The translations under genes were made by a program, and so were the position numbers. DNA of 22,268 nucleotides, from NCBI GenBank assembly GCA_030052745.1, contig JANBVO010000106.1:1-22268 (forward strand), given 5' to 3'. This stretch comes from Pleurostoma richardsiae. Lineage: Eukaryota; Ascomycota; Sordariomycetes; Calosphaeriales; Pleurostomataceae. This document shows, one piece after another, positions 1-22,268 of this stretch. Position 1 is the stretch's first letter; every line of letters starts with the position of its first letter. The notes beneath the pieces were generated by a model, which searched no databases, had not been told where the DNA came from, and saw nothing but the letters and a program-made list of their open reading frames with translations.

Positions 1-739
1 CGATATGAGGAATTGGGATGTGTGCGGGGAGATGAAAAAAGTGGGGGGCGAACACGAGCTTGCAATAGACAGTAACCGTCTAGCGGCAGAGGTGCGAATC
101 ATCTGCGAGACTGGACGTTTCACGGTTAGGGAAGCTAAAAATACGGGCGAAATTGCCCCGCATTTATTGGAGGGTATCTTAGCTCGGAGGTGTGTAACGT
201 ATCTTAATTACTAGAGACGATAGCCTTCGCGATATTACTTTAGCGCCCGGAAGTTGCGGAGGTGAGATATTTCTGGCCGACCGGTCGTTCTGTTTCGGTA
301 ACGATCGAATCACGTAGGCTTTCGGGGAAGCGGTAACTGTGTCTCCGGCGGGCGAGGAGGGTATAATCACGCTATGTTTACCGTAGTTTAGTTTGTTAAG
401 TAGGTATTATTAGTACGATCGCTGCTAGATTAAGGTTTTAAGCTGCGACGAACGACGTTTTGACCTCCGAAATAAGCGTGTGGTAGTAGGGGAACCGTTT
501 TGTCGGGTTCGGATGTATTAATAGGTACAGGTTATTGGCCGCTGGCGTTCACTAAGAGCAGGAGGGGTGAGTGGTACGCATGGGTTATTATAATTATCAA
601 CTTAAGTTGAGACGAAAAGACCCCGTCTGTAGCTGATTATCTGAGCCGCCTTCTACCCCGTACGTTGAAAGATAGGCCTCGAAGGCCCCTTCCGATCCTG
701 CGGTGGCCTTAGACGACTAGCATCTTCTCCGGTAGTAAA
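1..739. other. Region without a confident gene
   Basis: No frame on either strand gives a convincing protein. A minus-strand frame from about 640 to 430 and another from 370 to 179 read as plausible amino-acid mixtures with few stops, so a decayed gene may lie here. I see no domain, signal peptide or intron pair that would fix it. TA-rich trinucleotides (TAG, GTA, TAC) are common, as in the damaged genes further right. Confidence 0.4.
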
Positions 740-1849
740 TCATCCGCCCTGCCTGTCCTAGGCAGAATATTTAAGACGAAGCCGTAAGGGGCGCCTGCTC
801 CGCTCGTCCGATTGCGTGCTGTTCTTTAGTATCTTACGGAAAGGCCTTTTGTCTGTGTCGCCGCTACTGCTTCCATGTTGAAGGTCCGCGAACGTGCGCT
901 TTAGCGGCACGACGGGCGGAGAGGCCCTCCTACTTCTGGGGTAGTGGAGCTGGCTTCTTCCGCTGGACGGCTCTGGGCGCTGTGCTTCGACGGCTCTGGT
1001 CTCGCTGGCGGGTGCCATGGTGCGCCCTGGGTTCTGCGGCGAGACTATGTCGTGGTCTTCCGTGTCTCCCGGCGTCACGACCTCGGCGCCATCATCCTCG
1101 TTATCGTCGTTGGGCCAGAACAGGTCCTTAAGGTCGGAGTCGTCTGACTCGATGCTGGCCATGTCGGCTGCGTCGGGCTCCTGCTCTTCGTTGTCTGATA
1201 GCTCGTCCTAGTCCTCTTTAGAGTTGCTCGAAATAGTGATGGCCTCGTCCGGCCCGTCTTCGTCGTCGGACAGAGCCAGCCCCTTGGAGTAGTAGCCTTC
1301 GTCGCGGGGGTACGGCGTCCTAGGCCTGCCGTCGGCCCCGTACGCGACGCTGTATCCGGATCCGGGCCAGGCCGCAGGCGGGATCTCCTCGTCGCTCACC
1401 ATGGCGGGGAGGTCCGGAAAACTCGTGCGCGCCGTCGGAGACTGCAACGCGAACGGACCGAGCGGCACGACCCTAAGCCTAGCGGGGATGATGTACAGGC
1501 ACAAGAGGCTGGCATCTAGGAACGGGCGGCTGTTCGTGAGCATCCCTTCCATGTCGTAGCGGCTCTTCTCGTCCAGGACCGCGTCCCAGACGTTCAGCAG
1601 GGACATGATCTGATGCCTGACTCCGTAGTAGAAGTCCATCCCGAGATCGAGCTTCCCACGTAGGGCCGTAATAATACGCTCGTCGCTACCGAGCGCGTTG
1701 TCTTCGATAAATTGCCTCTCCGACGGGGACAGGATCTGCCCTAGGTAAGGATAACGCTGCTCATTCTCAATAATGCACACGTCTCTGACGTAGCTAGCAA
1801 ACTCGAGGATGCCGTGGGCACTGTCGGTAAGCTAGGGCGCGGCCGCCAT
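740..1849 (-). pseudogene. Unknown protein with acidic, Ser-rich C-terminal half; RIP-damaged
   Basis: One minus frame reads from an ATG at 1849 to a TGA at 742-740, about 369 codons, interrupted only by TAG codons at 1832-1834, 1208-1210 and 758-760. The first 130 residues look globular, with helices around YVRDVCIIENEQ and GKLDLGMDFYYGVRHQIM. The second half is low-complexity: acidic clusters such as SDDEDGPDE and DDSDLKDLFWPNDDNEDD, followed by a basic tail rich in Arg. I chose the ATG because the frame upstream of the longest stop-free stretch reaches it after a single TAG. If 758 is the true stop, the protein is six residues shorter. I do not recognise the family. The acidic-then-basic tail would suit a nuclear or nucleic-acid-associated protein, but that is only an impression. 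Confidence 0.6.
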
Positions 1850-1869
1850 CTTATTCTGTTGTAGTCCTC

Positions 1870-2178
1870 TCTGGGGAGATAATCTCGAGGTTCGTTAGAG
1901 GCAAGGCGTGGAATGTCTAATGTCCAGAAGTGATACTAACCTCTGTAGACGGACAGCAGATACCTTTATAATCTCTAAGCTCGCGACGCCCGGAAACCCG
2001 CCCCCCTCGTCTTCCCCGGCTCCAGTCTTTAGTCCTCGAGAACGGCCGGGCTCGCCTGGAGCCCGGCCACCGGGAGGTCACCATCCCGAATAACGAACAG
2101 GGCCCCGACGGCTAACTACAGTTCACATGCCATCGCACGCTAGCTTTCGTAGACACCGCCTTATCAGCCGTAAAATGA
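1870..2178 (+). pseudogene. Possible coding remnant, unknown
   Basis: A plus-strand frame running divergently from the gene at 740-1849 reads as plausible protein across TAA codons at 1918 and 1969 and a later TAA near 2113, up to a TGA at 2176-2178. Segments such as EVILTSVDGQQIPL and LVLENGRARLEPGHREV look like real coding sequence. The GC-rich middle (about 1985-2085) supports a former gene. No start codon is evident and no family is recognised. Confidence 0.3.
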
Positions 2179-2185
2179 GACGTAT

Positions 2186-2623: not shown

Positions 2624-2834
2624 AGATGAAAAATCCATTGATAAGAGAACTATAGTAAAATAATAATCACGAAGCAGCCGGTACGTAGATATTATATTAT
2701 AATCTCAGAAAGACCCATACACATTATACCCTAAGAAATAACTGGGACGAGTAACTTTACAAGTACATGAGCGCAGATAATTATAGCCTCCGAACTAAAC
2801 AAGTAGACCGGAACTCGAGACTAGCAGGCGACGG

Positions 2835-3696: not shown

Positions 3697-3880
3697 GACG
3701 AGGTTCGGTTCACCGTCTAGGCGAATCTATAGATAGCAACGTAATATGAGTACCTTGCACTAGAAGGGGGAAGAGCGGAAAGGAAGGGAAGGAACTTACT
3801 GCAAGTCTGCGATAGCTCGCCTGATGTTAGCATAGGTTAAATACTCGTTCACAGTCTACATCGAGACCACAATAACATCG

Positions 3881-4598: not shown

Positions 4599-4716
4599 AT
4601 GAACGAACAGAACTATACGATAGAATAACATTTAGACCATACGTACCCCTTAGGGCCTTCGTTTCGCGGCACTAATGTATGTATAGCCCCTCTACCCCTC
4701 TACGTAAGCGAAGAGG

Positions 4717-5178
4717 ATGCCTCGAACTAGAACGCAGCGCCGCCTACCGCGGTTGAGTAAGGCATTGCCGGCCCTACCCTTAGTGGAGGAGGAGCCGCCC
4801 GCGGTACCGTTACCCCTATCCGACCGACGTCTCTTCGCGGACACCGGCAGGTACCCCCCGATACGTGTGACGAAGACGCCGTCTATGAACCTGCTCGAGG
4901 AGAAGATTACGGCTTTGCAGGAGGAGAACGAGGTCCTGTACAAGCAGATCGTAGTTAAAAACTAGGAAGATACCTAAAAGAACAGGATAATTACCCTGCT
5001 GTAAATAGAGAACGCGTAGTATAGCCGCGAGATAGAGCGCCGGAACGGGACGATGGTATATATCGCCGATACGATCAATGCTGCATTCTAGGAAGTAGAA
5101 AGACCGCCTTCGGAGGGCAGTAAGAGCCCGCAGGTCTTGATCGACGAGGTGATCCGTATTTATAGCTAGCTGAATTGA
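4717..5178 (+). pseudogene. Small coiled-coil protein, RIP-damaged
   Basis: A single frame of 154 codons runs from the ATG at 4717 to a TGA at 5176-5178. The basic, Pro-rich N-terminus (MPRTRTQRRLPRLSKALPAL) is followed from about residue 53 by a clear coiled coil (MNLLEEKITALQEENEVLYK). This continues across TAG/TAA codons that sit where heptads would carry Gln. Six or seven such stops occur between 4963 and 5166. The opposite strand is open for 158 codons (5292-4816), but only because each TAG reads as CTA there. The heptad pattern shows the plus strand is the real one. Unknown family; it could pair with the coiled-coil product encoded at 3881-4598. Confidence 0.65.
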
Positions 5179-5279
5179 CGACCTAGCTGGTAGCGTCGTA
5201 CGCCGGTCCTCAGTTTGTCCTCGTCTCAATGCTAGGATTTGGAAGTTCCGGCCTTTAAGATTCCGGATACCTACTCCTA

Positions 5280-5629
5280 CGACCCCGCTCATGCTATTAC
5301 TTATATTATCGCTCCGTGTACTATATTTACAGTTTTATCGTATATTCCTGGACAGACCTCTAGAGTATTTCGGACTTGACGTCTGCGACGAAAGGCGTTA
5401 TAGCGATTGGTAGAGTTGTCCTGGCCATTACAGCGGCGTGTATTATCTTCTTGTAAGTTTGAAGTCGTAATATCCTTGCGGAGCCTAACCATCTTCTAGT
5501 TCCCGACGTAACCGTCATAGGTACTATGACGTTAGCTACCATCGGCCCCGCTCGTACCGACGCCGGTCGTCCTCCTCGCTTGAGTTAATAATTAGGAAGC
5601 ATAGAGAGGACAAACGTAGGGGAATCTAA
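5280..5629 (+). pseudogene. Possible C-terminal part of a single-pass membrane protein
   Basis: A frame around 5380-5452 encodes a hydrophobic stretch (VIAIGRVVLAITAACIIF). It is followed by a textbook intron at 5453-5499 (47 nt, GTAAGT...CCTAACC...CTAG). The spliced frame goes on with a strongly basic Arg/Ser-rich tail (SRRNRHR, RSYRRRRSSSS) to a TAA at 5627-5629. A membrane span followed at once by Arg residues fits a type I membrane protein with a cytoplasmic tail. The part upstream of 5380 is ambiguous: two other frames also look protein-like, so the start is not determined. A minus-strand frame (5542-5360) is an alternative I consider less likely. Confidence 0.3.
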
Positions 5630-6156
5630 GAGTACGCAAGCACGACCTATTAAAAGATGTTAAAACTGATGTTGGTGGCGTAGTCCCCCCCCCTCTCCAT
5701 CGTGGTATGCTGTTTTAGTTGCTGCCATTCTCTTCTGAAAGTCTAGCTGTAGATCGTCGGCTTAAGGCTAGCTGTCGTTATTAAATGATATTTCTCTTCA
5801 CCTTACGGTGCTAGACTTCCGATTGTGACCTTATGTGTAATAAAATAAAAAGGCTACTAATTTGTGATATTCGCTCTAAACTCATGGAGGGTGCGGTAGG
5901 AACTACCTACGACAGACGTCCTTGCATATAGTTCATCTTAATACCGCCGTACGACGAGTGGGATTGATAAGTAGTAAAAATAGCCTACGGGTCGTAGAAT
6001 TAATGATATATTGCCTCCTCTTTCCGCTGTATCCTTTAAAGAGCGTGATAATAGACCGAGTATCCTCTTCTCGTATTATAGCCGGAACAGATTGTCTACC
6101 TAATAGTACCGATCATTTGTCAAGCTATTATTCTTACCTGGCAGCTATTCTGTAGC
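5630..6156. other. Intergenic, AT-rich, no confident gene
   Basis: The stretch holds a run of nine C at 5685-5693 and TA-rich sequence. A 77-codon plus frame (5922-6155) ends just before the next gene; it has no recognisable features and could be an upstream exon or chance. No promoter element can be assigned. Confidence 0.35.
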
Positions 6157-6840
6157 ATGGGCATCGTCTTCGAGTGTATTGACGAAGACATATCGAGAAG
6201 TTTTAGGTTTAGTACGGTTTAGGACGGCTCCGTTGTCACGTGGTTTCCTACGGATCCCGATAACTGTTACCCGTAGATCGTCGATAGTAGCAAGTACCGC
6301 CAGTTTACTCTTACCTTCGCAGTAGCCGATTATTTCGAGCCCGAAGCCGTCTTATGGTCAGTTATATAGATCTATATCCGGCGGCTTGAAGAGAACTAGC
6401 ACGTCACTGTTCTCGCACTTCTCACGGACAATTATTTTTTTATGTACATGCCCTTACTTATATCCCTGAGAGTGCCCGCGAGACCTTGGACGTGGGATAA
6501 GGCTAACCCTGAGCCGGTAGAACCGTGTTAGCATTCCGCCGTACCAGCCTGTTTCGGCGCAGCCGACAACGACCCCACATGGGCCGATCGGTACCTATGC
6601 GGAGCGGACGACCATCAAGCCGTCGTTTACGAGTTCGAGTTACAAGCTACGCTGTCGGATCTCCTCGCCATGCAATAGTCCTCCAGCCCGGCTATGCGCC
6701 CGCTGTTGCCGAAACGCTATCCGCCGTCCAGCGCGCGCTCGCCTGTGCGGAGACGTAAAGCGCCATCTAAAAGATGCAGACGATAGACCTCTAAAAGAGC
6801 CGAGACAGCTAAGTAGGCTGGAGGTAGATGCGGAGTCTGA
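6157..6840 (+). pseudogene. Unknown protein with basic C-terminus, RIP-damaged
   Basis: From the ATG at 6157 one frame of 228 codons reads to a TGA at 6838-6840, crossing about eight TAG codons. The first two thirds look globular, for example KYRQFTLTFAVADYFEPEAV and HVTVLALLTDNYFFMYMPLL. The last 50 residues are very basic (SARSPVRRRKAPSKRCRR). The frame upstream of the ATG is also free of stops for a short way, so the start could lie further left. Other frames are interrupted more randomly. I do not recognise the family. Confidence 0.5.
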
Positions 6841-7053
6841 GATGACGTGGGCCTGTACATATTGTCTTTTCTTTTTCTTGATTTCTTGCGGTGCAACGTG
6901 TTCATGGGATTGAATATGCGGTGCTTGAGACGAGTCCTGTCTGCTTCGACCTGAAATACAGTATAAATTCCCGAATGCTTCAGTATCGTCCCTATCCTGC
7001 GTAACAGTGCTATAGAAACCTCCGCCCTAGTGATAGCTGTCGTTCCGTTTGCG

Positions 7054-8064
7054 TTATAGCGTACAGGCGGGTACTGAGGTGTTCGTAGTCGAAGGGCCGG
7101 TCCTACTGATATTGACGAGGAAATTGTCGTTTAGCTGCGCAGAGATCGCCGTATTGTTCAAGTCTTGACCCGTCTCGAAGGAGAGAGCCTGGCTAGCCGA
7201 GAGCGCCTCGGAAGTCCTTTCGATATTCATACACGAGGTGTAGATCTTAGAGATGACGACGGACGGAGTTACATTTCTCGGTGCAACGGGATTTCCCATG
7301 GCATATCGCCTGGCCCGATCACCGCGAACAACCTGCCTCTTACTCGATACCATCGGAGCGGATATTATGGGCCAGTCCTAGACCTAGTATATGGTATACG
7401 TGCCCGTTTCTAGTATGTCGGCCGGTAGCCGGATATTTGTCTGGTACTAGAGGTCTGCTCCTTGGGGATCCTCGGGAGCCTTCTTAGATAGGGCTTGTCG
7501 GGTGACTGAGATCGGTTCGTTATTAACTTAATAGTACTGTCCGTCATTAAAGTTCCGTGTTGTGAGTAGCCTGCCCCGCTGGTCGCCTCCTTGCCTATCG
7601 GCGGTCTAGACTTTGTAGATCGTTAGCAGGGTATCGTTGTTAGACGGACTGGTAGTGCTGTAAATATAGACTGTACCCTTATTCTCTAGCTTGCTCGTGA
7701 AGGGAAAAGTTATATAGCCGTTCTCCTGGTACCGTAGGGCGACGAGATTTCTTGGCGCGGCGTATAGTATCGGATACTCCGTACTGTAGTCGCCCACGGT
7801 CTACGTCGACCTATATATGAGGTCGTCTGAGTGGATGATCTTGCCGTCAGGTCTGCCGTTGGGAGGGATAAGGTTAAGATCGAGGGCTTCGTTAAAGCCG
7901 GGCGATCGACTAATATAACCCCGAATGAACCCAGCGGGCCTTACTATGGTTCCATTCGGCGCGATACGTAGCAGCTATTCTACCTATGAGTGAGCGATAA
8001 TGACCTGAATAGGGACGAGTAGACCAGCTACGATTACCAGTTATAAGACCGTTGTAGACCTTAT
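7054..8064 (-). pseudogene. Secreted DUF7492-like protein, start codon lost, RIP-damaged
   Basis: One frame runs from 8064 to a TAA at 7056-7054, about 337 codons. It matches what I recall of a fungal secreted family annotated as DUF7492. Landmarks in order are: a signal peptide ending just before a His-Ser-Trp-type motif (here HS[TAG]VE[TAG]L), RIAPNGTIV, NLIPPNGRPDGKIIHSDDLI, AAPRNLVALRYQENGYIT, NKGTVYIYSTTSPSNNDTLL, GGDQRGRLLTTRNFNDGQ, DWP, IYTSCMN and GQDLNNTAISAQL. Seven or more TAG/TAA codons stand where Trp or Gln is expected. No ATG lies at the start of the signal peptide; an ATA at 8064-8062 occupies its place, as ATG to ATA would give. Cleavage before His would leave an N-terminal His, reminiscent of copper-dependent secreted oxidases, but I make no activity claim. 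It is divergent from the gene at 8442. Confidence 0.75.
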
Positions 8065-8441
8065 GACAGTGGCGGATATCTCGTCCCTAGAATTCGTTCG
8101 ACTAGAAGTAGTGTGATCCGTCCCCGTAGCAAATCTTTTTTGAGGAATATTAGAGAGCCCTAGGCCCTACGGGCAGATATGTATACGAACAGCTTGGCCT
8201 GCGACTGTTCGCAGCATTCCCGGCCCGCCACGTGCCGGGACTCGGAGAGATGGGAGCCCGGCACTTGCTTGCTGTATTTCGGGCTGATGCAAGCTGGAGG
8301 ACAGGTGTCGACGGATTGTCATCTTTAACTACCAACTTAAAGTTTATTTGCTTCTATGTTTGCCAGTGCCGTACACATATAGGCTTATATAGGAGCTGAC
8401 GGATCACACTCATTAAACGACGTAGTAAGACACCCGCCAAT
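8065..8441. other. Divergent intergenic region
   Basis: This 377-bp gap separates the leftward DUF7492-like gene from the rightward gene at 8442 and should have held both promoters. It contains the near-palindromic GC-rich stretch CCCGGCCCGCCACGTGCCGGG around 8219-8240. A 61-codon minus frame (8335-8150) has no recognisable features and I do not call it a gene. Confidence 0.4.
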
Positions 8442-9252
8442 ATGCAGTCCAATCCTGCCGACGAAGAGATGCTTCTAAGTCAGCCAAATGACCTTAAGCC
8501 GTTTTATATACCAAGGCAGTTGGAGGTCGGGATGCTTACCTAGCGCCTCGTCAGGCACGACGCCAGTGCGTTCTTCGCGGAGCATTTCGAAGAAATATAC
8601 CACTTCTAGGTATCGTTACTACAAATAACAGCATTGCTAGGAACCATACGTACGGACAGCCGCATCGTAAACACGTTTGAGGCTTTAGATAACGTCATAA
8701 TCAACGACACGCTTCTGTCGTCGTAGCTCGTATATATGTAACTATCCCGGTTCTATACCACAGTTAAATAACGTATATCGAACGCCCGACGGAAGGACAG
8801 GACGAGCCTGTACGGCCTCCGTAGGAACGCTACGATTGCTGGTAACGCACACCCTAACGTTAGTAGGCATACGTTAGATCGTAAATAACTCCGTAAGCGT
8901 CTACGGCACGTAAAGCGCTAGGTTTACTTCACTAGATCATCGCCCTTCTTACTAGTGATTTACTCGGAGAACGCCGAGTAGATCATGTACGTACCGGATG
9001 CACAGTGACATCTACGTGTTGACTTGCTGTAGTACGAAACTAACCATATCCAACGAACGACTAGGAACGACAGCGACGGAAATCCTACGAGTATACCCCG
9101 CTAAGCTAATCAAAGCGTCCGCTTACCTCGTAAAGGTAGCCTAGGATACGGTCAACCGCGACATTGCGTACGATCTAAGTCCTACGTAGGCAGTTATATC
9201 GAAATTGAAGGCCGAGTTGCTCGCACCACGCCTAAACTCTAGATCGGCGTGA
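8442..9252 (+). pseudogene. Unknown two-exon protein, RIP-damaged
   Basis: Exon 1 reads from the ATG at 8442, crossing TAG/TAA codons at positions fitting Gln or Trp (for example after VGMLT and after EEIYHF). The frame changes at a 46-nt intron, 8987-9032 (GTACGT...GTTGACTTGCTGTAG), and exon 2 ends at a TGA at 9250-9252, 255 codons in total. The protein looks mostly helical: PFYIPRQLEVGMLT, SLLQITALLGTIRTDSRIVN, LLSSQLVYM-like around a TAG, SSPFLLVIYSENAE, then YPAKLIKASAYLVKVA and AVISKLKAELL. I have an impression of similar uncharacterised Fusarium-type proteins but cannot name a family. The coherent reading across the intron is the main support. Confidence 0.55.
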
Positions 9253-9682
9253 TAGATGCTAACCTTTAATATAGACCGCCGGTAGAGATGCGCTATCGCG
9301 AGTTCCAGCTGGTTTAAGCTCGTGCTTTAAGCTCGTAGTTCTAAGTCTTGGTTACGACCTATGGTAGTCGATAATTGGCTAGTCTAAAGCTATACACAAA
9401 ATATAATTCGAATGATGCCCAATACAGTCTCCCCTCTCTAAAACACGCCTAGCTGCCGTGGTCTTCGGGATTAAAGGCTTATAAACCTTTAAGTACAACT
9501 TTTATAAATAAGTTCACTCCTCGTAGCGTAATGTTCTCGATAGCCGTATTGGTCGGGCAGCAACAGGCAGCCTCGTGGCTTGACATGTTTGCCTTACCCC
9601 GCAGCTGAAATAAACCGTTATAACCTCACCCTATCCTCGTAATGGTAGCGAAACTAATGAAACCCTCTCTAACTTTACCCCG
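9253..9682. other. Intergenic, upstream of the NLR gene
   Basis: No gene is seen in these 430 bases. Frames continuing from the gene on the left look partly protein-like to about 9390, so that gene may be longer than called. The remainder should include the former promoter of the NLR gene at 9683; no specific element can be named. Confidence 0.4.
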
Positions 9683-12600
9683 ATGGCAGAAGGTCTTAGT
9701 GTCGCGGCGAGCGTTATCGTCGTCATCGAGCTGGCCGTTAAGGTTACTTTACTCTGTCTCGAGTATTTTTCGGTCGTAAAGAAGGTTAAGCTTAATATTG
9801 AGCTCTTACGTGGTTATGTCGACGAATTGAAGGTGACCGCCGAAGAAACACAGAACCTACTTCAAGGTTCCTATGGATCTCGCCTTAGAACGTCGTAGAG
9901 ACTGCGCGACGCATTAAACCAGACCCGTTCACAACTTGGCGAGGTCGCGAACAAACTAGACGATAGACTTAGGCCGGGCCGGAAGTCGAAAGCGATGAGA
10001 GCGGTAGGTTTAAGAGCCTTAAAATGGCCTTTCGAGAGCAAAGCTATTGACGAGGTCATTACAAACCTTTGGCGAAACCAAACCGCCCTTTCTGCCGCTT
10101 TTCAAATTAATTAAACGTATATTTTCCGTCCGGAAAGACCTACTAGAAAGCGATTAACCGTCACGTCTAGAGCCGAAATTCTGGACATTAACAAAAAAAA
10201 CGACCTGTCGAAGCTCTCCGTCACGGCAAGCGTCGCCTTCGATTCTCAAGCCAACGAATACGACCCTCGGTACCACTCTAATACTAGAGTAGAGCTCCTC
10301 GCTGAAATATACAAGTGACTTGAGTAAGCAGATGGCAAGTATATTTTTTGGCTACGCGGAATGGCTAGCACCGGCAAATCAACGATATCGCGCACCGTAG
10401 CCGAATATCTCTCTGCTAATAAGGTACCTGCTACTAGCTACTTCTTTAAAAAAGGCGAAAGTAACCGCAGTAAAACAGACAAACTTTTCACAACGATCGC
10501 TATTCAGCTCGTACGGCAAGTTCTACATTTAGCCCCGCATATCCGCCGTGTGATCGAAGATGATGACAGTATCGGCGATAAGAGTAAAAAGGAATAGTTT
10601 AAGAAGCTCATTCTCTAGCCTCTAAAGAAATACGTCGAAGATCTTCGTAGACCTGCCCTAGTAGCCGTTATAATCGATGCTCTGGACGAATGCGACCGAG
10701 AAGCAGATGCTAGAGCCATTATCTATTTTTTGTCCCGCGCCCGAGAGCTTACTACTGTCCGTCTGAGGTTTTTCGTCACTAGCCGGCTAGAATTGCCTAT
10801 CCGGCTCGGGTTTAAAGATATCGGCGGCAGCTACGAGGATGTTGCCCTCTACGACATCCCCGAGTCCGTGATTAAGTACGATATTACTACCTTTCTTGAG
10901 CATGAGTTCGGTTAGATTAAACGAGATTATAATAATCGTCGTGCGCCAGATCTACATTTGCCTCCCGATTAGCCCAACGCTGCTACTATTTAGACATTAG
11001 TCAAGATGGCAATCCTATTGTTCATCTTCGCCGCGACGGTCTGCCGATTCGTTGGAGATCCCCGTCTTGGTGGTCCGAAGGAGGGACTGACGAGAGTCCT
11101 AAAATATAGGACAAGCCGAAAATCTAATATAGATGCGACCTACTGTCCAGTGCTTGATCAGCTGCTTATCGGACTTACGGACTTAAATAAGTGTAGAGTA
11201 ATAGAGAAATTCAAACAAGTCGTCGGTTTCATTATTATTCTCGCTAGCCCGCTATCGACAACCTCCCTCTCTCGGCTTCTAGCGGTACCACGGGATACTA
11301 TTGAGGATCAGCTGGACTTGCTTCACTCCGTTTTGAACGTCCCCCAGAACCCCGATACCCCGGTTAGGCTGCTACACCTCTCATTCTAAGACTTCCTTGT
11401 CGACCCTGAGAGGGGCAAGGAGCAAGAGCAGTTGCCATTCTAGATCGACGAGAAAGAGACGTATACGCGGTTAACAGCGTAATGTCTCTAATTACTGTCG
11501 ACGAGCGACACCTAGAAACGAAATATTTACGGTTTGCGAATGCCCGGAGCGCGACGGTCGGACATTGACCCGCATACTATCGATTAATGTTTCTCTACTG
11601 AAGTCTAGTATGCGTATTTCTATTAGGTTTACCACTTAAAGCAGAGCAAGGGCATTATGTAGGATAGCGATATAGTCGATAACTTCTTACGCCGCTATCT
11701 CCTGTACTAGTTTAAGGCATTAGGTATCATAGGTCGTATCTCAGAGAACATCGATATAGTAGACGACTTGTTAGAGATAACTGATGTACGTATGCCCGTT
11801 AGTATGCTGTTTTCTGATGAAACTAATTGCTAGTCTAGCGCGTAAGTAATGTGTTAGCTTTTCTTTACGACACTAAACGAGTTGTTATGAATAATTGCGG
11901 CGTTATCGACAAGACGCCGCTTCAAGTGTACCATTCGACGATTCTGTTTACGCCAGAATCAAGCGAGGTTCGCTAGGTGTTCCGAGACTAGTTTCCAGCT
12001 TGGATAAAGCTACTGCCAAAGGTAGATTCAGAGTGGCATCTATGTTTCTAAACGCTCGAGGGCCACGGCGATGGTGTCAGCTCGGTGGCGTTCTCGCCCG
12101 ACGGCCGGCAGGTGGCGTCGGCTTCAGTCGACCGGATGGTCAAGCTCTGGGAGACAGCGACGGGCCGCTGCGTGGCGACGCTCGAGGGCCATAGCGGTGC
12201 TGTCTGGTCAGTGGCGTTCTCGCCCGACGGCCGGCAGGTAGCGTCGGCGTCATTCGATAGTACGGTTAAGGTCTGGGAGATAGCGACGGGTAGCTGCGTG
12301 GCGACGTTCGAGGGCTACGGCAATATTGTTAACTCGGTGGCGTTCTTGCCCTACGGCCGGCAGGTAGCGTCGGCGTCATTCGACAGTACGGTCAAGGTCT
12401 GGGAGATAGCGACGGGCCGCTGCGTGGCGACGTTCGAGGGCTACGGCGGTGTTGTCTGGTCAGTGGCGTTCTCGCCCGACGGCCGGCAGGTAGCGTCGGG
12501 GTCAGTCAATAGTACGGTTAAGGTCTGGGAGATAGCGACGGGTAGCTGCGTGGCGACGTTCGAGGGCCACGGCGATATTGTTAGGTCGGTAGCGTTCTCG

Positions 12601-13527
12601 CCTGATGGCCGGCAGGTAGCGTCGGGGTCAGTCGACAGGACGGTCAAGCTCTGGGAGACAGCGACGGGCAGCTGTGTAGCAACACTCGAGGGCCACGGCG
12701 GTGCTATCTACTCAGTAGCGTTCTCGCCTGACAGCCAGCAAATAACGTCGGCGTCATTCGACAGGACAGTCAAGCTCTAGGAGACAACAACGAGCAGCTA
12801 CGTGACGACGTTCAAAGGCCACGGCGATATTATTAGGTCGGTAACGTTCTCGCCCGACGGCCACCAGATAGCGTCGGCGTCACACGACAGGACGGTCAAG
12901 CTCTAGGAGACAACGACGGGCAGCTACGTGGTGACGCTCGAAGGCCACAGTGGTACTATCTACTCGATAGCGTTCTCGCCCGACGGCCAGCAGGTGGCGT
13001 CGGCGTCACACGACAGGACGGTTAAGCTCTGGGAGACAGCGACGGGTAACTACATGGCGACGCTTAAATCCCACGGTGATGCTATCTACTCGGTGGCGTT
13101 CTCGCCTAACGGCCGGCAGGTGGCGTCGGCGTCATTCGATAAGACGATTAAGGTCTAGGAAATAGCGACAGGTAGCTACGTGGCGACACTCGAGGGCCAT
13201 GGCAGTGCTGTCAGCTCGGTAGCGTTCTCGCCCGACGGCCGCTATCTGCATACCGATAATGGCAACTTTCTACTTAACTCATCATTTGGACAGACACAGC
13301 TAGAAACACATGGGCCTCACTCTTCGAGCCAAGTAACTGTTGGCTAGAATATAGGGTTGAACGAGAACAAAGCATGGGTCACCTATAATAAGCATCCCAT
13401 TCTGTAGCTTCCACCGGCATATCGTCCTATTATATCAGCTATAAACAAATCGGCAATAGCTGCTAGATGTCATTCCGGGCGGGTATATTTAATGACCTTC
13501 TCATTTACGAATAATCTTTTCAAATAA
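9683..13527 (+). pseudogene. NACHT-WD40 NOD-like receptor (fungal STAND protein), RIP-damaged
   Basis: Fungal NLRs of this type sense non-self or incompatibility signals through WD40 repeats and signal through a NACHT NTPase. Three exons fit: 9683-10116, 10171-11785 and 11839-13527, with introns of 54 nt (GTATAT...TTAACC...CTAG) and 53 nt (GTACGT...ACTAATTG...CTAG). Together they give exactly 1246 codons. Order: a fungal STAND N-terminal domain (MAEGLSVAASVIVVIELAVK; later GLRALKWPFESK); NACHT with P-loop GMASTGKST near residue 208 and Walker B VIIDALDECD near 310; a linker with GLRMPGARRSDIDPHTID; LLPKVDSEW just before ten WD40 units; and a C-terminal domain with LPPAYRP and SGRVYLMTF. About 27 stops interrupt it, nearly all TAG or TAA; one is TGA (10316). 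The P-loop Ser replaces the usual Gly, again a CpA-type change. No function is expected now. It converges on the DUF3723 gene. Confidence 0.92.
12085..13250 (+). repeat. Tandem WD40 repeat array, 126-bp unit
   Basis: The motif VAFSPDG recurs exactly every 126 bp, at 12085, 12211, 12337, 12463, 12589, 12715, 12841, 12967, 13093 and 13219: nine complete 42-residue units plus a partial tenth. The units are nearly identical in DNA, as in the fast-evolving WD40 arrays of Podospora HNWD genes, where repeats are shuffled by recombination. Units 1-5 keep the Trp codon TGG and the Cys codon TGC/TGT. In units 6, 7 and 9 the Trp codon is TAG (12778, 12904, 13156), and in units 6-9 the Cys codon is TAC. 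Damage therefore begins sharply at about 12715. Confidence 0.95.
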
Positions 13528-14333
13528 TTTTCTCTATCTTTGTTCCCTAAATGGTTCAAGGGGACGTAGTTACTATATACCCAGTCAACTCAATAAATGC
13601 TTCAGTTATAAACATTGCTGCACTAGTCAGCTGTAGCGGGACCAGCTGGTACCGTTATAGTACATTGGTGTTGTTGTCTTCTCAGCACTGGGAGGGATCG
13701 TGCTCAACATATGCACCGCCCACCTTAAATCTTATTCGCAACATGTCGTTGTTCGAAGTTCTGCTATTAAGCTATGATTCATTAATGTCCATATCATCTC
13801 ACTAACCTACTATTTGAAACGCACTCAGAATCAAATCTATTCGTACTAGGATTCACTGATCGGGAAGCCAACAAATCCGAGCTTGTTTTAGCTTATCAAG
13901 AAGCCGTAATTTATAGCTAACAGTATAATCATAGGTATGTCCTACCCCTCTATAAAGCCGATCAGCTGCTATGAAACGCAAATATCAGTAGCACCCTAAA
14001 ATAACCGTCTACGGCACTAACGAGCATTCTCGTGTAGTCTGAAATTCCTCTAGCAGCTTTCGTATTAGAGGGCTCGAGACGCAAACGATAGCAGCAAACG
14101 GGCCTTCCCCACCTTCTCCGAAAGGTCCCACCGTGTACTCGTGCTAACGTAGGGGAGTTGAAATAAGAGTGGTCCCTACGTCCTATCCTCTAATAAACGA
14201 GACGTCCAGCTTCCTCTGCTTAGAACTGGTAGAGCTCGGCGATATGCTTCTCTTGCTGCGAAACACAACACAGCTCTCAAGATTATTCGCTTGTCCACAT
14301 GTCTCTCCAATGACTCGGAGAATTAAACCTAGG
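13528..14333. other. Region between convergent NLR and DUF3723 genes; weak coding remnant
   Basis: Both flanking genes end into this 800-bp region. A plus frame from about 13780 to a TAA near 14165 reads protein-like (LFVLGFTDREANKSELVLAY) across several TAG/TAA codons and one TGA, and may be a remnant of an unknown small gene. The open frame 13551-13805 has no recognisable features. If the TAG at 14336-14334 is a damaged sense codon, the DUF3723 reading would extend to a TGA at 14279-14277. Confidence 0.3.
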
Positions 14334-15205
14334 CTAGAGAATCGACTCTAGGGTCACTAGTACTGAGCGACTAGGCGAGGGTGCTGCTCCGGCTTCGTTT
14401 TGGGACACGGTAATAATCTGCCAATCGGGATCGCCTTGCTCCTCCTCCTACGAAGCCTCATGCACGCTTTTGGTCTCCGAAAAAGGATCCATTCCCCTCC
14501 TCTCGCTCTCGCTACCATAACTAGCTTAGCTACTCGTCTCGACTCTTGAATCGACAGCCTTAGATTTTAAAACAGGTATTTCTATAGATAAGGATCTCCT
14601 TACCTCCAGCCCTGCTATCTCCGTTATCTCCCCACGGACGCCTTCAGTTGAGCGAGGGGATTTTTACCGTTCGTCTAGAGCGTCTAAGTCCCTCCTGTTT
14701 GCTACACCTCCTGGCTGCGTACCAGTGGCGGCTTCGCGGCGTGTTCGAATATCGAGCAGCCGCTGGCGTACCTCATCTAGTAGAAGGCGACGTAGTCTTT
14801 CTATCCTTGCTAAATTCACACGACTCACATCCGGAACGGTCCGTCCTAAGCTTGGTTATCTTAGGTTATCCTCGTGGTACTGGAGCGCTACATGTTCTCT
14901 AACCTTGCTATCGACCGGGGAATCGTCCAATAAATCGGTCGTATACTAGCCCGACAATCGCCGTTTGAATTGCAACTCTTCGTTATTCTCGGTTGCCCTT
15001 AGCTTTACTCGCTTCAGTAGTGGCTCACGTTTCTTCACGGGACGTATACGCAGTGCCGTATTAGATGGTTCCGCAGGGCCTCCGGCATAAGTAAATACAC
15101 CTCGACCTCTTAAGATATCGTCTGCTTCTAGTGCTCCTGTCGTGCTGGATGGTCCGGCAGGAACTGGGAGAGCCTAGGCGAGCGCCTATCCTCCCTTTTC
15201 CGGGT

Positions 15206-15344
15206 CCGAAGTAGATGTTATCGGAGCGGAATCTCCCTTCGCGCTGGAGGGCCCGGCGGGGGTTTCCACTAAATGAGGGTAGGCAAACGTCTATCTGGCC
15301 GTCTCCGGATTCGAAGTAGATGTTACCGGAGCGGAATCTACCTT
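15206..15344 (-). repeat. Internal duplication in the DUF3723 tail
   Basis: A segment of about 36 bp starting TCCGAAGTAGATGTTA recurs about 103 bp apart (near 15206-15241 and 15309-15344). It encodes the paired peptides DSAPITSTSDPE and DSAPVTSTSNPE. A looser related pair with GAGTAAGCTTG lies near 15450 and 15583. These indicate growth of the tail by tandem duplication. Confidence 0.65.
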
Positions 15345-16032
15345 CGAACTGGCGATAGCGTTCTTACTACCGCCGGTGTTCTTTCTGCTCCCGGTATTCT
15401 TAGTATTCTTTTCATTTCTCTTTGCGAGTTACCTTAGAGTTGATATTCGAGTAAGCTTGGCGTTAGGTCTACCGGTGCTGGTAGATTTTCTTAGCCGGGT
15501 TCGGGTTTCCCGTATGGACAGTAGCTCAGTGCTCTTGGTCCTGGCCTTGGTTAACTTTACGCCCTGCGCTCGAGTTGATCTTTGAGTAAGCTTGCCACGG
15601 GGTTTGCGGGTCCTGGGAGACTTCCTTAGTTGGGCGTGGGGTCCTCGCGTCGAGAGAATTCCTGTCGACTCTGCGGTCGACGATATTCCTGCTTGGAGTA
15701 TTTCATGATTTCGCGGTTTTTCCTGGCCTGCTCTAGTGTCAGGCGTGGCAGACTGCGTGGAAGCCGGGTCTGGGCTCCTATCGCGTCTAGCGCTTGGAAG
15801 ATTATCTTTTTCCTTATACTACTTCGGAGTCCGTTCTGCTGGGCTTAATTCTCGGCTGCTTCCTCTGCTGGCCCTCCGTACTTCGTCCCGACGCCTGCCT
15901 TTCCTTTGGCGGTAGTTGGGATATTTAACAGACTTGGCCCGTTCCCGCCGCGGGGTCCTACTGACCGCGACTCCGGCTAGATATTCCGGAGATGGTATTG
16001 CGAAACGTAGGGGCTTAGGCGGGGGCTCAGGC

Positions 16033-16092
16033 GGATGTTTTAGCGGATGTTCTAGCGGGTGTTCTAGTGGGTGTTCTAGTGGGTGTTCCAAT
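16033..16092 (-). repeat. 12-bp minisatellite encoding EHPL repeats
   Basis: Five consecutive 12-nt units (16033, 16045, 16057, 16069, 16081) differ at only a few bases. They encode repeated Glu-His-Pro-Leu tetrapeptides within the disordered part of the DUF3723 product, flanked by looser Pro-Glu-rich copies. The length probably changed by replication slippage. Confidence 0.85.
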
Positions 16093-18425
16093 GAGGGCTC
16101 CGGCGGGGGCTCGTGTTCCGGCGGATGTTCCAATGGGGGCTTTATCGGTTGCTGCGACTCCCCTGCTGAGGCGGGCGGCAACTCTGGCTTACCCGACTTC
16201 CGATGGCTAGAGGAATGAACGTGAGAAGCGTCTCCGCCTTCTTCGGTTGTAGGCGTCCAGGTGGGCGGCGGCGTGCGTGGAGGTTCCGGAGCTGGAGCTA
16301 GCAAAGAGGATACCTCTTGGTCAAGGACTGGCCCGGTGCTTGACGCTCCCAAGTTCAACAGGCTCGTACTGTCATCGGGCCTGGGAGAAGGCTCTTCACT
16401 GAGAAGCGCGTCCTCTTCAGCGGGTCTCTTCAGCACGGTAACCCGTTTAGTGGGCAGAGGCGGGAACATCGGCCGCTCTGAACGCTGAGGGGTCGGCTTT
16501 GCTTCCGAAAGTTTTCGCGGGTACCGCAATGCAAATCTGTGACCAGGTCGAGACGCCGTCGTAGGGGCGTGTTCAGCGGTCTTCTTTGTGATTCCGGCCT
16601 TGAAAGCTGCCGTTTGACCTGTTCTATTAGTAGCCTTCTGGTTTCGGCGCGTAGGTCTAGGGGCTTTGGATGAAGGCGGCATTTTGCCGGATAGGTCCGC
16701 CGCGGTTATGTCTCCTGGCTCTGGCCGCTTAGGCACGGAGAAAGTAGGGGGCGGAACTGGCGGGTCGAACGGTGCTGCCGCTAGAGCGTTTATAATGTAT
16801 TTTGCTTTGCCGAAGAACGCTTTAAGGAAGTCATTTATAACAAATGCCGAGCTTAGACGTTCCTTGCTCGCCTCCTGTAGGGTCGGGAGGAAGGTATAGC
16901 GAGATAACGTCCGGAAGACGTTGGTAGTCGGTTTGCCGAACCTCCACTCTGGCGTTTGGGAAGCTAAACGGACCGTTTTCAATGACAGAAGCCGAGGTTC
17001 TATCTTGGGATTCCTTAGACCTTCCTCGATCAACGCGGTCGAGTACTCGATCTTGTTCGTACCGGCGTGGAGCCGGAGTAGGTCCCGAGTATCGACGTCT
17101 GTTATCATTGGTTTCTCTTTACGTTTATCTTATAGGGTCCGTTTATTGGAGAGGCGTGGAAAACGCCGGATAGTCATTAAGAATAAGAGTTGGTACGTTA
17201 GATTTCCGTCTATCGAAGCTAAAGAACGGAATCTACTTTCGCTGGTTTGATCGGTCTCGATGACTGGCGGGTTAGGCGGCCGCTAAGCGATACCTAGGTA
17301 GTTGTCTACTGTCTGTGCCTGTGACGGATTAAAGTTTGTCGCCTTTATGTTTAGAATGTGCCGTGTGATGATTTGTATGCTGATGGAGAGGTATCTTATA
17401 TTCGCTTGGAACGTCTCGAAACTAGTAATGATGGTGTCGAGCGATAGTATATTCTGTAGGATTACCTGCCGTAGAGCGTGATCTTTAACCTGCGAGAAGA
17501 TTAGGCGCTTATTTATTATTATGGTGATGAGGGCCGTGTTATTGGGGTCGGACAGCGCGAGGCCTTGTAGCTCCCTAATCGTGTTGAAGTCCAGATAGCT
17601 GATCACGCAGGGGTCACCGCCGGTAATCTTCATGAGGATGACGAGGATATGCTCGAAATATCGCACAATCTGCTCGTCACAGTGGAGGGCCAGGTACTTG
17701 TGGATGTTCCCCAGTTGGAACCCAGGCTACAGCCCCACGAACGGGAGCAATGCATTCAAGGCCGCTACGATGCTTCCCCTGAGGTAGTTGCCATTCTCGT
17801 TAACTTTAAGAAGAATCTAAAGGCTCTTCTCTTTGTAAGGGGTCAGCTACAGAACCCATTCGCCGATCAGGTTAGCCAGTCCGATCTCGTCTTAGCGCTG
17901 ATAGGATCGAAGAGTTCGGTATATCTCGCCGTCCGCATATTTCGTCTGGTAGAAGAAGCGCTTCACCTTCTCGCGGAGGAAGGCAGGGCGGGTGGCTGGT
18001 TCTGTCAGCAGGCGGCCTTCGTTTCCACTGTGCTACTTGCCTTCCGGGACATGGAACAACTTCACGGTCCACCAGAAGCGGCTACCGTAGAGCCCCCGCG
18101 CCGCCGCAATCCTCTGTCTGCCGTCTACGTAGACGATGCGGTTGTTGAGAGCGATGCGCGGTGGATTTCCCTCCCAGACGGTGCGGCGGAGGGCCTCAGG
18201 AGACCGGTGCAGAGTAGACAGGATCTCCTTATACGTACTCTCATCGACGCAGCCTGTTATATAGTTATCCTGATTATCCTGTCTGCACGCTAACCTTCGA
18301 AAGACTCTGATGAGTTTCTCAGTGATCGTACCGTACTCCTGTCTGCCATAGGCGGCATCAAATGTAAAAGCAGATGGCGGAACCCGAATGATACCGACGA
18401 GGTACTTTTCCGTTATGGTCTCCAC

Positions 18426-18946
18426 GATATAGCCGCGGAGAGGAGAACGACAGAGAGAGTGCGTGGGAGATAGCTGGGATTAAGCGATGCCTAGTACTGC
18501 CTACGAGAGCCTGACCTCCTGTCTGGCACATGTCTTCCTCGATTCGTGCCGGGATCCTGGTTCTGAGCAACCGCAATTTGGAGGACTAGGTTCCCGGGCT
18601 CGCCGACTATATAGGCAGGCTAGCCGAAAGGTATAGCTACTAGGACTCAGCCCACCGGCTTTACGGACTGCTCGTCGTGCTATGGCTATACGGGTCGGCG
18701 ATATCCTGCAGCAGGTTATCACTAGGACGCTGCTTAGCGAGAGATAACAGTTCGCCTGACGAGCGGGTGCAAGTACTACATCACATTCACGATCGGAGCA
18801 CTAAGTGGAGGTAACAAAAATCCTTGACATACGCCTACAGACAAATCGACAGGATTCTACCAGAGATCCTGCGCAAAGAATCGAATAACCAGACATCGTT
18901 GGAACAAGACGGCAATACAAGCACCTCCCCCACCCAACATGTACGA
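18426..18946. other. Intergenic, upstream of the DUF3723 gene
   Basis: No gene is evident in 520 bases. The minus frame of the DUF3723 gene stays open from 18425 up to a TAA near 18482, so some N-terminal residues may be encoded here. Open frames of about 70 codons on the minus strand (18576-18358, 18722-18501) have no recognisable features. Confidence 0.4.
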
Positions 18947-19504
18947 TCAGCTCTCACCAAAACATTCCCTTGCCAATGCATCCATTTGCCTCCTAGTCAA
19001 CGGGCGTAGTGTTCTCCGCCGTACCACGCGCGCTGGCCGCCTTATAGGAGAGGAGGATGAAGAGGATGAGGAGGATGGAATGGAAGACGAAGACGAAGAC
19101 GAAGTGCTGCTCGAAGAGCTCGGCGTCCGAGCCGGGCTAGGCTACTCCGGAAATGGAACAGATACGCTTAACAGTCCCGCCTCAGTTCCGCCGTTGGAGA
19201 GCGCGGCCAGTACGGTGGCGTCGGTGGCAGGCAAAGGTACATTGCCATTGGTGGCGGCAAGTCTGAGCCGTCGTTCCTCGATGCTCTCGAGACTGTCAAG
19301 CCCAAGACGTTCCTCGAATCCCGAGGTGTTGAGGCTGCTGAGTAGATCGTTGCTTGTCTCGAACAGGAAAGTCTAGCCCATGAAACTGCCCGCCAGGACA
19401 AATTTAGCCTGCGTGTCGTAGTGCAGCTCGAGCAGCCGCTTCATGGAGGTCTGCCGGCGGTCCAAGTAGCTCCGCACTCTCTTCTGAGATGGAGTTCGAG
19501 ACAT
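18947..19504 (-). pseudogene. Small protein with poly-Ser tract, unknown, RIP-damaged
   Basis: One frame runs from the ATG at 19504 to a TGA at 18949-18947, 186 codons, broken only by TAG codons at 19375-19373 and 19144-19142. The N-terminus is basic and probably helical (MSRTPSQKRVRSYLDRRQTS, then MKRLLELHYDTQAKFVLAGS). A middle region contains LNTSGFEERLGLDSLESIEE. Then comes a long Ser tract (19114-19045), encoded on this strand by TCT/TCC/TCG codons that appear as a GA-rich microsatellite on the plus strand. The tail is basic, ending ARECFGES. The plus frame 18939-19376 with its acidic Glu/Asp run is the antisense image of the Ser tract. No family recognised. Same orientation as its neighbours, the DUF3723 and ferric reductase genes. 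Confidence 0.6.
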
Positions 19505-20103
19505 AAGGGGCAGGCTTGCAAGTATGACGGAGGATGACGTAGGGATGCGAATTGAGAAGGCGAGATATGAGAAGTTTACTGCTGAACAGAAACTATATGA
19601 CCGTGATGGTGCTAGAAGTAAGGTATGAAGACTTCTAATAAGCAGAGACTCTATCGCCGTAATAGCAGTGGAGGAGTTCTGTAGTTATACATGACTAAGG
19701 AGTTCTATAATTAAGGTATCTCCGGCCATGTTCGAAGCCATGAAACAGGTGCGTTCTGAGGGGCACCAGTGATTAGCTGGGTTACCCGCGCCTAGCCAAC
19801 GATCAAGCAATAAACACCAAATTTAGCCGAGCACCTCTCCCATCCCGGCGCTGGGCAGCCAGCAGCCCGTACCCCGGTGGCACTCTCGCCCGGAACCTAG
19901 ACAGCCCGGATACGATCAGGAAAGGTAAAGGGGGAGGAAGACGAGGTTGGAGCTAGCCGCAGGGAACTACCGCGGCGCGATATTAGCCCTTACGGTGCGA
20001 ACGCCTGACGCATCGGGCGAGAAGTCGACCCTACAGCGAACCGCTGCGGTCGTCTCAAGAACATCCTTCGTTAAGAACCTTTTTGTTTCGCCTTGCTATC
20101 TAG
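19505..20103. other. Intergenic, no gene seen
   Basis: About 600 bases separate the poly-Ser gene from the 3' end of the ferric reductase gene. Frames on both strands are broken densely and carry no recognisable motif. If the TAG at 20106-20104 is a damaged sense codon, the ferric reductase reading would extend ten residues to a TAA near 20076. Confidence 0.45.
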
Positions 20104-22036
20104 CTACGGATGTTGCAGAGCGCCCTTTTCAGCCAACATCGCGGAGTCGGTGTCTCTTACTGTCGCTCCTGGCCTGTACTCCACCTCTGCGAAGCTGAGA
20201 TCGCGGTCTGCCGTGACGAACGACGTTACCGTCCGCCACGTGGTCGCCTTATACTCTGGGTTGCTATACACTTTTCTAGGTTAGCGGTAAAGCGAGCAGC
20301 TTTGGTAAGACGTACTAACGACAACGGTCTTGTCTGGTAACAGAGACTCGTACGCAACCTCCCTTATAGCCCTCGAAGTTCCCGACCATAGCTGCCCCTC
20401 CTTCGAGTACACAGCCCTCTAGTATCTCGACTCCGTAAACGGTGGGGGGCCGGTCCGAGGCGACGGGTAGATACACCAGACGAGGAGAAGTCTCTACAGG
20501 ATGTCAGCGTACAGCCGTAGGCGGCGGGTGTTTCTATAAACGTTATTGGGGTCTAGGGTCTACAGAGCTCTTAGATAGCCGTCAATCCACTTCTCTTGCG
20601 AGTTGTATTCTAGCACCTAGAACAGGTCGACCTTATGTATGAGATTGCGGAACAGAGACTTAATCGTGTCTTGCTACTACGGACTCCGGCCCTGCGTCTT
20701 ATTCGCGATAGAGTTCCCAGCGTCAGACCCCGCGTTAGGACCTAGGCTCTCATGCCTCGTCGCCATACCGGATAAGCTGCTGTTAGCGGACGCCTTTTTT
20801 GCTGTCTTCGTGCTGTAGGCCTTGGCGAAGATCTTCGCCTTGACTTCGTTGTTATGCTGCTTGTGCTCGGCGAGGCCAAACGCATGCGGCAGTACGCTGG
20901 CGATGCCTATGCCCTTCGCCGTAAGGATGACCCTATCAAAGAGGTGTAGACTTAGGTCGCGCCCGTAAGGACCTTCTAGGAGTAGCCGCTGCCCTAGCCT
21001 GAACGCCAGGCCGCGGAGCGAGCGGGCCTGGTGCGAGACTAGGAAAGCCAGGCTGGTCTCGTCGGACGACGGAGCTTGCGTGTAGTGCATCACAGCCATC
21101 GGGTAGCTGGTGAGGACTTCGTAGTGCAGGGCGCTCTCGGGCGAGAAGGCCGTGGCCTTCCTAGGGAGGTGGACGTAGAAGTAGCTCCTGGGAAAGACGC
21201 AGAGCCGGCCAGACCGTAGGCCGATCCGGGTCACCTGCGAGTCCTCCCATTTGTTATAGACAGTGGCCTTGCCGGCGGCGAACGAGAGCCGCAGGAGCCG
21301 GTAGAGGGCCGTAAGCGTCTATAGGCCGGCGGCCACGTAGATGGGAATCTGCGGGATCGTCCTCCCGACGAAGATGACGTGCGACAGCGTCGCCGCGAGC
21401 ACGGCGAGGAACAAGACCGCATGGATCTTGGGGAACAGGGTGCGCAGATAGGTGCGGGAAAACGCCAGCGACGTGACGCAGATCGCCAGGAGCCCGCCAG
21501 CGGCCTGGGTCGTCAGCCAAGCAGCGAGGGACGGGGCAGGGGCAACTTACGACGTAGCCAGACGTCTTGACGGAGAAGGCTGCCGCGCGATCCGTAAGGG
21601 CGAGGCCCGCGTGGAGCAGACCCTCTACGACCACCACCCGCCCGATCCAGTGGTGCGCCAGGTAGTAGGTGTGCCGCGCGATGCCGATGCGGTCCACGAG
21701 AGGATTCGTGCGGCCGCCCAGGAAGAGCGGCGTCGCGTTCATCACCGCCATCATGGCGGCGGTGTTCCCAAGGACCCCAAGGCTGCCCCCGCGGACGGCG
21801 CACATGACGAGGGGGTAGGCGTTAGCCGCGAGGAACGACAGAAAGACCAGGAGCTCCAGCCAGGTGACGCCGATGGACGGCCACTGCGGCGTCAGGAGGC
21901 GGTACAGCAGGAATCTCGCGAAGGGCGCTCGGAGGTGAGGCCAGACGCAGCGCAGGAGGCGCGACGTGAGCAGCCGCGCGGGATAGAGAGCGAGGAGACC
22001 TCCGAGGAGGATGGAGTAGAGGCCGATGACGTCCAT
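20104..22036 (-). pseudogene. Ferric reductase-like transmembrane protein (FRE), lightly damaged
   Basis: FREs pass electrons from NAD(P)H through FAD and two membrane hemes to metal ions. Exons 22036-21551, 21504-20542 and 20493-20104 give 613 codons; introns are 46 nt (21550-21505, GTAAGT...GCTGACG...CCAG) and 48 nt (20541-20494, GTTTAT...GCTGACATCCTGTAG). The ATG at 22036 begins MDVIGLYSILLGGLLALYP, a start typical of Starship FREs as I recall them. Heme-ligand pairs are HHWIGRVVVVEGLLH and HAVLFLAVLAATLSH. The FAD region is SYFYVHLPRK...SYPMAVMHY, where the His of the usual HP motif is Tyr. The NAD(P) region has LEGPYG and AKGIGIASVLPHA, then a polar insert of about 60 residues before LEYNSQEKWI and VWCIYPSPRTGPPPF. 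Exon 1 has no stop; TAG/TAA codons occur at 21321, 20679, 20619, 20562 and further on. The end is uncertain (20104 is a TAG). Confidence 0.88.
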
Positions 22037-22268
22037 GATGGCGGAGCAGCAGCCGTGCAGCGGGTGAGGATATCTCTGTCTCACGAGCGGTTGGCGACGG
22101 GGGGAGCGCGAAGAAGACGAACGAAGTGCAAGGACACCGCACGCGTCGGCGCGGAGGCTGCGTCCGTCGTGCAGCCCGGACGAGGCCATCTAGCCACCAG
22201 CTGGCGCATCCCGGTCCCCGGCGCCCGGCTCCAGACTCTCCCAAGCCGGTCTACGACGGGCCAGGCTC
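22037..22268. promoter_or_regulatory. GC-rich 5' flank of the ferric reductase gene
   Basis: This flank is GC-rich and little damaged. The frame stays open upstream of the ATG at 22036 as far as 22189, but the extra residues are low-complexity Arg/Ser-rich and unlike a ferric reductase N-terminus, so I treat it as leader and promoter sequence. No specific element can be identified. Confidence 0.4.

Follow-up and report, generated by a model that had tools for sequence, protein, structure and literature searches.

What brought an NLR gene, a DUF3723 gene and a ferric reductase (FRE) gene together in one decaying stretch of a genome, and was it a giant transposon of the Starship type? Here we address this question for a window of 22,268 bp, which is one whole contig (C9) of an assembly with 136 contigs and 39.4 Mb; its gene families and its repeat-induced point mutation (RIP) suggest that the host is a filamentous ascomycete. 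The first-pass annotation had read the three genes, which lie within 9683..22036, as the likely interior of a decayed Starship. We conclude that the window is probably a fragment of a Starship-type accessory block that is present in two copies, one of them inactivated by RIP, and as such a probable, albeit unproven, derelict Starship. The element type itself is already known; what is new is the pair of twin copies and, between them, a strongly diverged NLR.

A DNA search of the genome with window 13300-22268 found the second copy on contig C121. Read in reverse, C121 75-16292 corresponds to window 74-17127, with an identity of 88% over window 74-12736, 79% over 12555-13653 (the WD stretch and 3' part) and 90% over 14034-17127; C121 lacks the ~380 bp that lie between these last two stretches in the window (13654-14033). 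At the point matching window 17127, C121 is itself interrupted by the ~4 kb transposon whose end opens the window (see below), and the same search found no second copy of window 17127-22268. A search with window 1-12000, in which 38 of 49 candidates were scored, returned mostly the transposon end and missed the rest of C121, and its list is incomplete.

Which of the two copies has changed? From C121 to the window, the differences run from C to T and from G to A. The CpA dinucleotides of C121 read as TpA in the window in 723 of 2000 cases; the numbers changed are smaller for CpT (317/2122), CpG (188/2774) and CpC (158/2506). Because the changes run in this direction, prefer CpA and place stops opposite C121 codons, the window is the mutated copy. 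The window is also rich in TpA. Its composite RIP index (TpA/ApT minus (CpA+TpG)/(ApC+GpT), per kb bin, following the definition excerpted from PMC12289983) is 0.53 overall and above 0 in 21 of 22 kb bins, a few of them barely so; it is only 0.02 at 13-14 kb and at 21-22 kb, and -0.03 at 18-19 kb. The 21-22 kb bin, at the FRE end of the contig, has 67% GC and is hardly RIP-mutated. On C121, the index exceeds 0 in 1 of 50 kb bins. The C-to-T changes favoring CpA, the TpA excess and the duplicated sequence together identify the window as a RIP-mutated duplicate, and the decay described in the first-pass annotation is borne out, with many stops in both the NLR and the DUF3723 gene. RIP normally strikes both partners of a duplicate; the C121 copy may have arrived after RIP, or it may have escaped it.

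Setting aside the RIP-direction changes and excluding gapped columns, we find the copies less than 1% different outside the NLR, with 57/9593 changes (0.59%) to its left and 25/2627 (0.95%) to its right. A very recent simple duplication was rejected on account of this residual divergence. The NLR itself is ~10 times more diverged than the neighboring sequence: 266/3264 changes (8.15%) over 9683-13450 and 44/673 (6.54%) over 13451-14500, a class that still includes the very end of the gene. These figures carry the caveat that the WD repeats could not be aligned with certainty.

The NLR gene occupies 9683..13523 on the plus strand (the end is approximate, mapped through C121). It starts with an ATG at 9683 and comprises an N-terminal region, a NACHT-type domain at 10328-10786 (NPHP3_N, E 9.3e-27, plus strand, boundaries approximate) and WD40 units at 12058-13317; Pfam finds ten WD40 stretches. 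Exon 1 (9683-11787) contains 19 in-frame stops in the window, opposite which C121 has CAG (6), TGG (5), CAA (3) and five other codons. On C121 the gene has a start ATG, a stop and 1100 open codons between them, once a single 44-bp step resembling an intron (GTATGT donor, CAG acceptor) is allowed for, and the NACHT profile scores 27.8 bits against a cut-off of 26.7. In exon 1 without the WD repeats, 82 of the 148 non-RIP changes are nonsynonymous, compared to 110.7 (100-120) expected, corresponding to a ratio of nonsynonymous to synonymous change (dN/dS) of ~0.42. This deficit indicates that the divergence between the alleles built up while both were coding genes, before RIP. We also considered conversion from another close NLR as the source of the divergence. 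We rejected it after a search with the N-terminal and NACHT part of the C121 gene (1757 bp, WD repeats excluded) gave no matches beyond C121 and C9 themselves except for two short stretches of 71% identity (on C89 and C60); no other close relative of the first half of the gene was found in the genome by this DNA search. A limited literature search turned up no published case in which twin copies of a Starship differ by a diverged NLR.

It is tempting to attribute a function in non-self recognition to this NLR. The WD units are 126 bp (42 amino acids) long, and there are ten in the window and six on C121, the last of each being partial. Across both copies, the most variable columns of the unit are 6, 26 and 24 (with 9, 8 and 6 residue types), followed by 5 and 8 (5 each). 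In Podospora, according to passages of PMC2873952, positive selection acts on two pairs of codons in the WD unit (7, 9 and 25, 27), and the repeat number differs between alleles. Columns 6, 8, 24 and 26 have the same spacing as these Podospora codons, shifted by one. A NACHT-type domain, highly similar WD40 units, a variable unit number and paired hypervariable positions, the features of an HNWD-type recognition NLR, are thus all present. The likeness to the HNWD/NWD NLRs of Podospora anserina (het-d, het-e, het-r) extends to the NACHT domain, the 42-amino-acid units of high internal similarity, the differing repeat number (here 10 and 6) and variability at two equally spaced position pairs. 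However, the Pfam HET domain was not matched in the searched pieces of the window or of C121, unlike in HNWD proteins, and we therefore class the gene as NWD-like rather than HNWD proper, with a putative role in recognition. The Pfam search of the window covered both strands apart from 1-2600 and 13393-22268 on the plus strand and 8503-12901 on the minus strand. On C121, 20 open reading frame pieces were searched, of which 5 scored above the curated cut-off, 2 gave weak matches only and 13 had no match.

How far does the duplicated block extend? The window begins inside the end of a ~4 kb transposon with terminal inverted repeats and a TA target (window 1..74, plus strand, recognized from DNA matches). 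Of the 38 matches scored for window 1-12000, all but one (37) are to this end, six pairs of such ends lie ~3.97 kb apart in opposite orientation, and TA is visible by eye at the junctions. Contig C3 begins with the identical transposon end, and its base 75 resumes at C121 16295, next to C121 16292, the counterpart of window base 74. These junctions are most simply read as the insertion of a single transposon into a TA of the mutated copy; C3 (28.9 kb), the ~4 kb transposon and C9 (22.3 kb) would then probably be neighbors. If C3 and C9 adjoin, homology between the copies covers at least 51 kb, with gaps at 19-26 kb of C3. The RIP index is above 0 in 17 of 28 kb bins of C3. At 20-26 kb it is mostly not above 0, and the matching stretches there are 75-88% like C121 (with one short 93% match), which fits the need of RIP for similarity. 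Beyond C121 35668, homology becomes patchy and shows no sharp edge.

Some further features of these contigs are worth recording. C121 35.7-44.2 kb against C3 19.3-24.3 kb forms a second island of high divergence with little RIP, in which an AAA ATPase gene lies and DUF7082 is weakly matched. The ~4 kb TA-target transposon has 100-bp terminal repeats that are 94-100% identical between copies, next to 1.5 kb that are 81-91% alike; 9 of 10 such halves (at L022, L025, L029, L031, L033, L034, L035, L037, L038 and L039) are strongly RIP-mutated (index >0.9). At C13 639959-644005 (L033/L037), this transposon splits a reading frame that by eye resembles a glycoside hydrolase.

The other two genes lie on the minus strand to the right of the NLR. 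The decayed DUF3723 domain (17064..18287) contains five TAG and two TAA and matches PF12520 with 180.5 bits against a cut-off of 22, over profile positions 1-378 of 508. The divergent FRE-like gene (20677..22036) has a transmembrane part at 21590-21742, which scores 23.3, 26.3 and 26.9 bits for PF01794 in three runs, under the cut-off of 28, and a FAD/NAD part at 20773-21045. The two separate parts follow in the expected order on one strand, the FAD/NAD half downstream of the transmembrane half, and we take the stretch EGPYG...GIGIASVLP to be FRE-type. By tblastn, the FRE on contig C129 is matched by the FAD/NAD half (7.1e-6; 2.0e-5 without composition correction; 2.0e-6 in the reverse search), and PF08022 and PF08030 matched none of the searched window pieces. 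The placement of the three genes by the first-pass annotation is therefore upheld, the NLR and DUF3723 by Pfam and the FRE, below the Pfam cut-off, by its tblastn match. Chance does not explain the NLR and DUF3723 matches; by profile, the FRE is the weaker of the three.

This pairing recurs elsewhere in the genome. Six DUF3723 profile matches are read as three genes, on C9, C129 and C64, and an FRE-like gene stands beside DUF3723 at all three loci. On C129, the FRE precedes DUF3723 by ~1 kb and points the same way, an order shared with the window; FAD_binding_8 (28.9 bits) is above its cut-off, and Ferric_reduct (21.1) and NAD_binding_6 (21.6) are below theirs. On C64, the FRE-like gene adjoins DUF3723 on the opposite strand (tblastn 1.7e-5; 2.2e-4 with the window FRE piece). 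The 16 NAD_binding_6 matches in the genome include none of these three genes, and the 17 Ferric_reduct matches include that of the window only; we accordingly consider all three FREs divergent. On the assumption of 18 FRE-like genes placed at random in the genome, the chance that every one of the three DUF3723 genes has an FRE within 3 kb would be ~6e-8, a figure that ignores the clustering of accessory genes. Between DUF3723 and the FRE, the window also has an open frame of 145 amino acids (18939-19376, plus strand), acidic by eye and with little RIP.

Is the block then part of a Starship? Accessory families of Starships include NLR, patatin-like (PLP), FRE and DUF3723 genes, as named in a passage of PMC12506042, and three of these four stand here within 12.4 kb; the families are associated with Starships without strictly defining them. 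In this combination, in the tens-of-kb size of the block and in its second genomic copy, the locus resembles Starships that carry FRE, DUF3723, NLR and PLP, such as Horizon and Sanctuary. RIP of duplicated Starships is also described, with a derelict one that keeps an unmutated stretch (PMC11623301, in part). Like the Pi-rho copies of Paecilomyces variotii and Spiromastigoides treated in the same passages, the block is heavily RIP-mutated over most of its length and has a low-RIP stretch where the copies differ too much (here ~20-26 kb of C3). Unlike them, as far as those passages go, it has a nearly unmutated copy in the same assembly, and its captain was not seen.

Several observations weigh against a Starship origin or leave it open. 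The C64 FRE rests on tblastn and inspection by eye, with FAD_binding_8 at 12.3 bits against a cut-off of 22; and the three DUF3723 proteins are very distant from one another (best tblastn E 0.006). Unlike in Horizon and Sanctuary, no captain, PLP gene or border was found. Profile searches of the genome gave at least 34 exon-level matches to the captain domain DUF3435 on 17 contigs, but none on C9, C3 or C121 among the 40 candidates scored, with both copies running off their contig ends. Patatin gave 10 matches from 13 scored candidates, none on C9, C3, C121, C129 or C64, and no border, direct repeat or empty site was seen, the contigs stopping short. C129 does have a DUF3435 gene, but FRE and DUF3723 are found ~22 kb upstream of it, whereas an element led by its captain would have them downstream, and on C64 the nearest DUF3435 match is ~49 kb from DUF3723. 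DUF3723, FRE and PLP are absent from Gaeumannomyces Starships in the portion of PMC12134995 that treats them, so these families are not a universal Starship mark, and in Verticillium most transposons inside Starships are without RIP, according to an excerpt of PMC12289983. Finally, a segmental or subtelomeric duplication would give the same picture here. The first-pass annotation had already reported the captain and a patatin-like gene as missing, which holds for C3 and C121 as well. It had proposed extending the contig, searching for a captain and running profiles for all four families. Extension succeeded in that C3 probably continues the mutated copy, and the profiles recovered the NLR and DUF3723, but the FRE stayed under its cut-off and no captain appeared on C9, C3 or C121; the Starship interior itself is partly supported, by the three families, their pairing and the second copy, and not by captain, patatin or border.

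We examined C129 (35.5 kb) because on no other contig, for reasons of length, could DUF3435 be tied closely to FRE and DUF3723. Its further genes are a deaminase of the OTT_1508 type, a TPR gene that matches TPR_NPHP3 weakly and, at 34289-35536, the DUF3435 gene at the contig end. This gene is 92% like that of C44, has one TGA and one TAG in one matched stretch, and runs off the contig. Its similarity to C44 ends ~200 bp before the DUF3435 domain, and C44 and C87 are alike for ~160 bp further; the stop may reflect either a 5' truncation or an element edge. We rejected C129 as proof of captain linkage, as DUF3435 reads off the contig end and FRE/DUF3723 lie upstream of it. Six contigs have DUF3435 matches within ~1.4 kb of an end (the starts of C44, C87, C126, C120 and C15 and the end of C129), and five of these six genes read off the contig, as if the assembly broke just inside captain-led elements. 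Two DUF3435 loci, on C123 (L002) and C80 (L003), are 92% alike over 3.1 kb, and C120 and C64 form another similar-scoring pair.

What else could have produced twin copies of this kind? The block may never have been a Starship: accessory genes duplicated in the ordinary way, segmentally or in a subtelomere, with one copy then mutated by RIP, would account for the missing captain, patatin and border and for homology that turns patchy after C121 35668 instead of ending sharply. We consider this possible but rather unlikely, since FRE stands beside DUF3723, both Starship-associated families, at every DUF3723 locus found, and a subtelomeric origin is at odds with the lack of a telomere repeat in the examined parts of C9, C121, C3 and C129.

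C9 and C121 could instead represent a single locus, either as its two haplotypes or as sequence from two strains that were assembled together, one of them RIP-mutated in its history. Collinearity over tens of kb, less than 1% non-RIP divergence outside the NLR, and a highly divergent NLR, as expected between alleles of a recognition locus, are all in keeping with this. However, it is established that RIP needs a duplicate in one nucleus, so a second copy must have existed at least once, and we judge this explanation improbable. Still further down the scale is coincidence, in which three accessory families, all of them common, came to lie together in a decaying region without any history in common; accessory genes do tend to cluster, and the FRE is below its Pfam cut-off, but the FRE/DUF3723 neighborhood at all three loci makes such a coincidence very hard to credit.

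Under the preferred reading of a derelict Starship, FRE, DUF3723, the NLR and the orphan genes would form one accessory block in two copies, of which that on C121 stayed nearly unmutated, and a captain recombinase, not seen on these contigs, would have moved it. FRE and DUF3723 would together make up a conserved accessory module. The NLR would be a putative non-self-recognition receptor, in which the WD40 propeller may bind a partner, the NACHT domain may act as the switch and the N-terminal region may signal. A speculative and, in our view, unlikely extension is that one element type arrived twice, the first copy being destroyed by RIP and the later one bringing a strongly diverged NLR allele. 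On that view, as the NLR is ~10 times more diverged than its neighbors, with both alleles under coding constraint, NLRs borne on such elements may be allele-specific receptors that tell copies or hosts apart, and RIP would have removed one NLR specificity. A RIP-killed and a nearly unmutated copy in one genome make a useful pair, as RIP changes can be removed and the residual divergence seen. By exposing a diverged NLR, such twins make the role of NLRs on giant transposons testable, and the FRE/DUF3723 neighborhood could mark derelict elements that have no captain.

The remaining genes of the block are decayed as well, all on the minus strand. At 14338..17127 lies the counterpart of an open frame of 959 amino acids (C121 37-2913), either a DUF3723 tail or a separate gene, without a Pfam match; the window keeps an open frame of 429 amino acids there (15819-17108). 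An orphan gene at 762..2078 (approximate mapping), also without a Pfam match, corresponds to a 439-amino-acid open frame at C121 14288-15604. A DUF7492 domain at 7357..7998 is matched with E 3.6e-60 when stops are read as X, and with E 4.2e-96 on C121, where it is open. This domain, the transposon end at 1-74 and the finding that the window is a whole contig go beyond the first-pass annotation. The one scored match of window 1-12000 that is not the transposon end falls in the DUF7492 region: C82 669832-670175 has a 66% DNA match to window 7532-7869 and marks a relative of this gene elsewhere in the genome.

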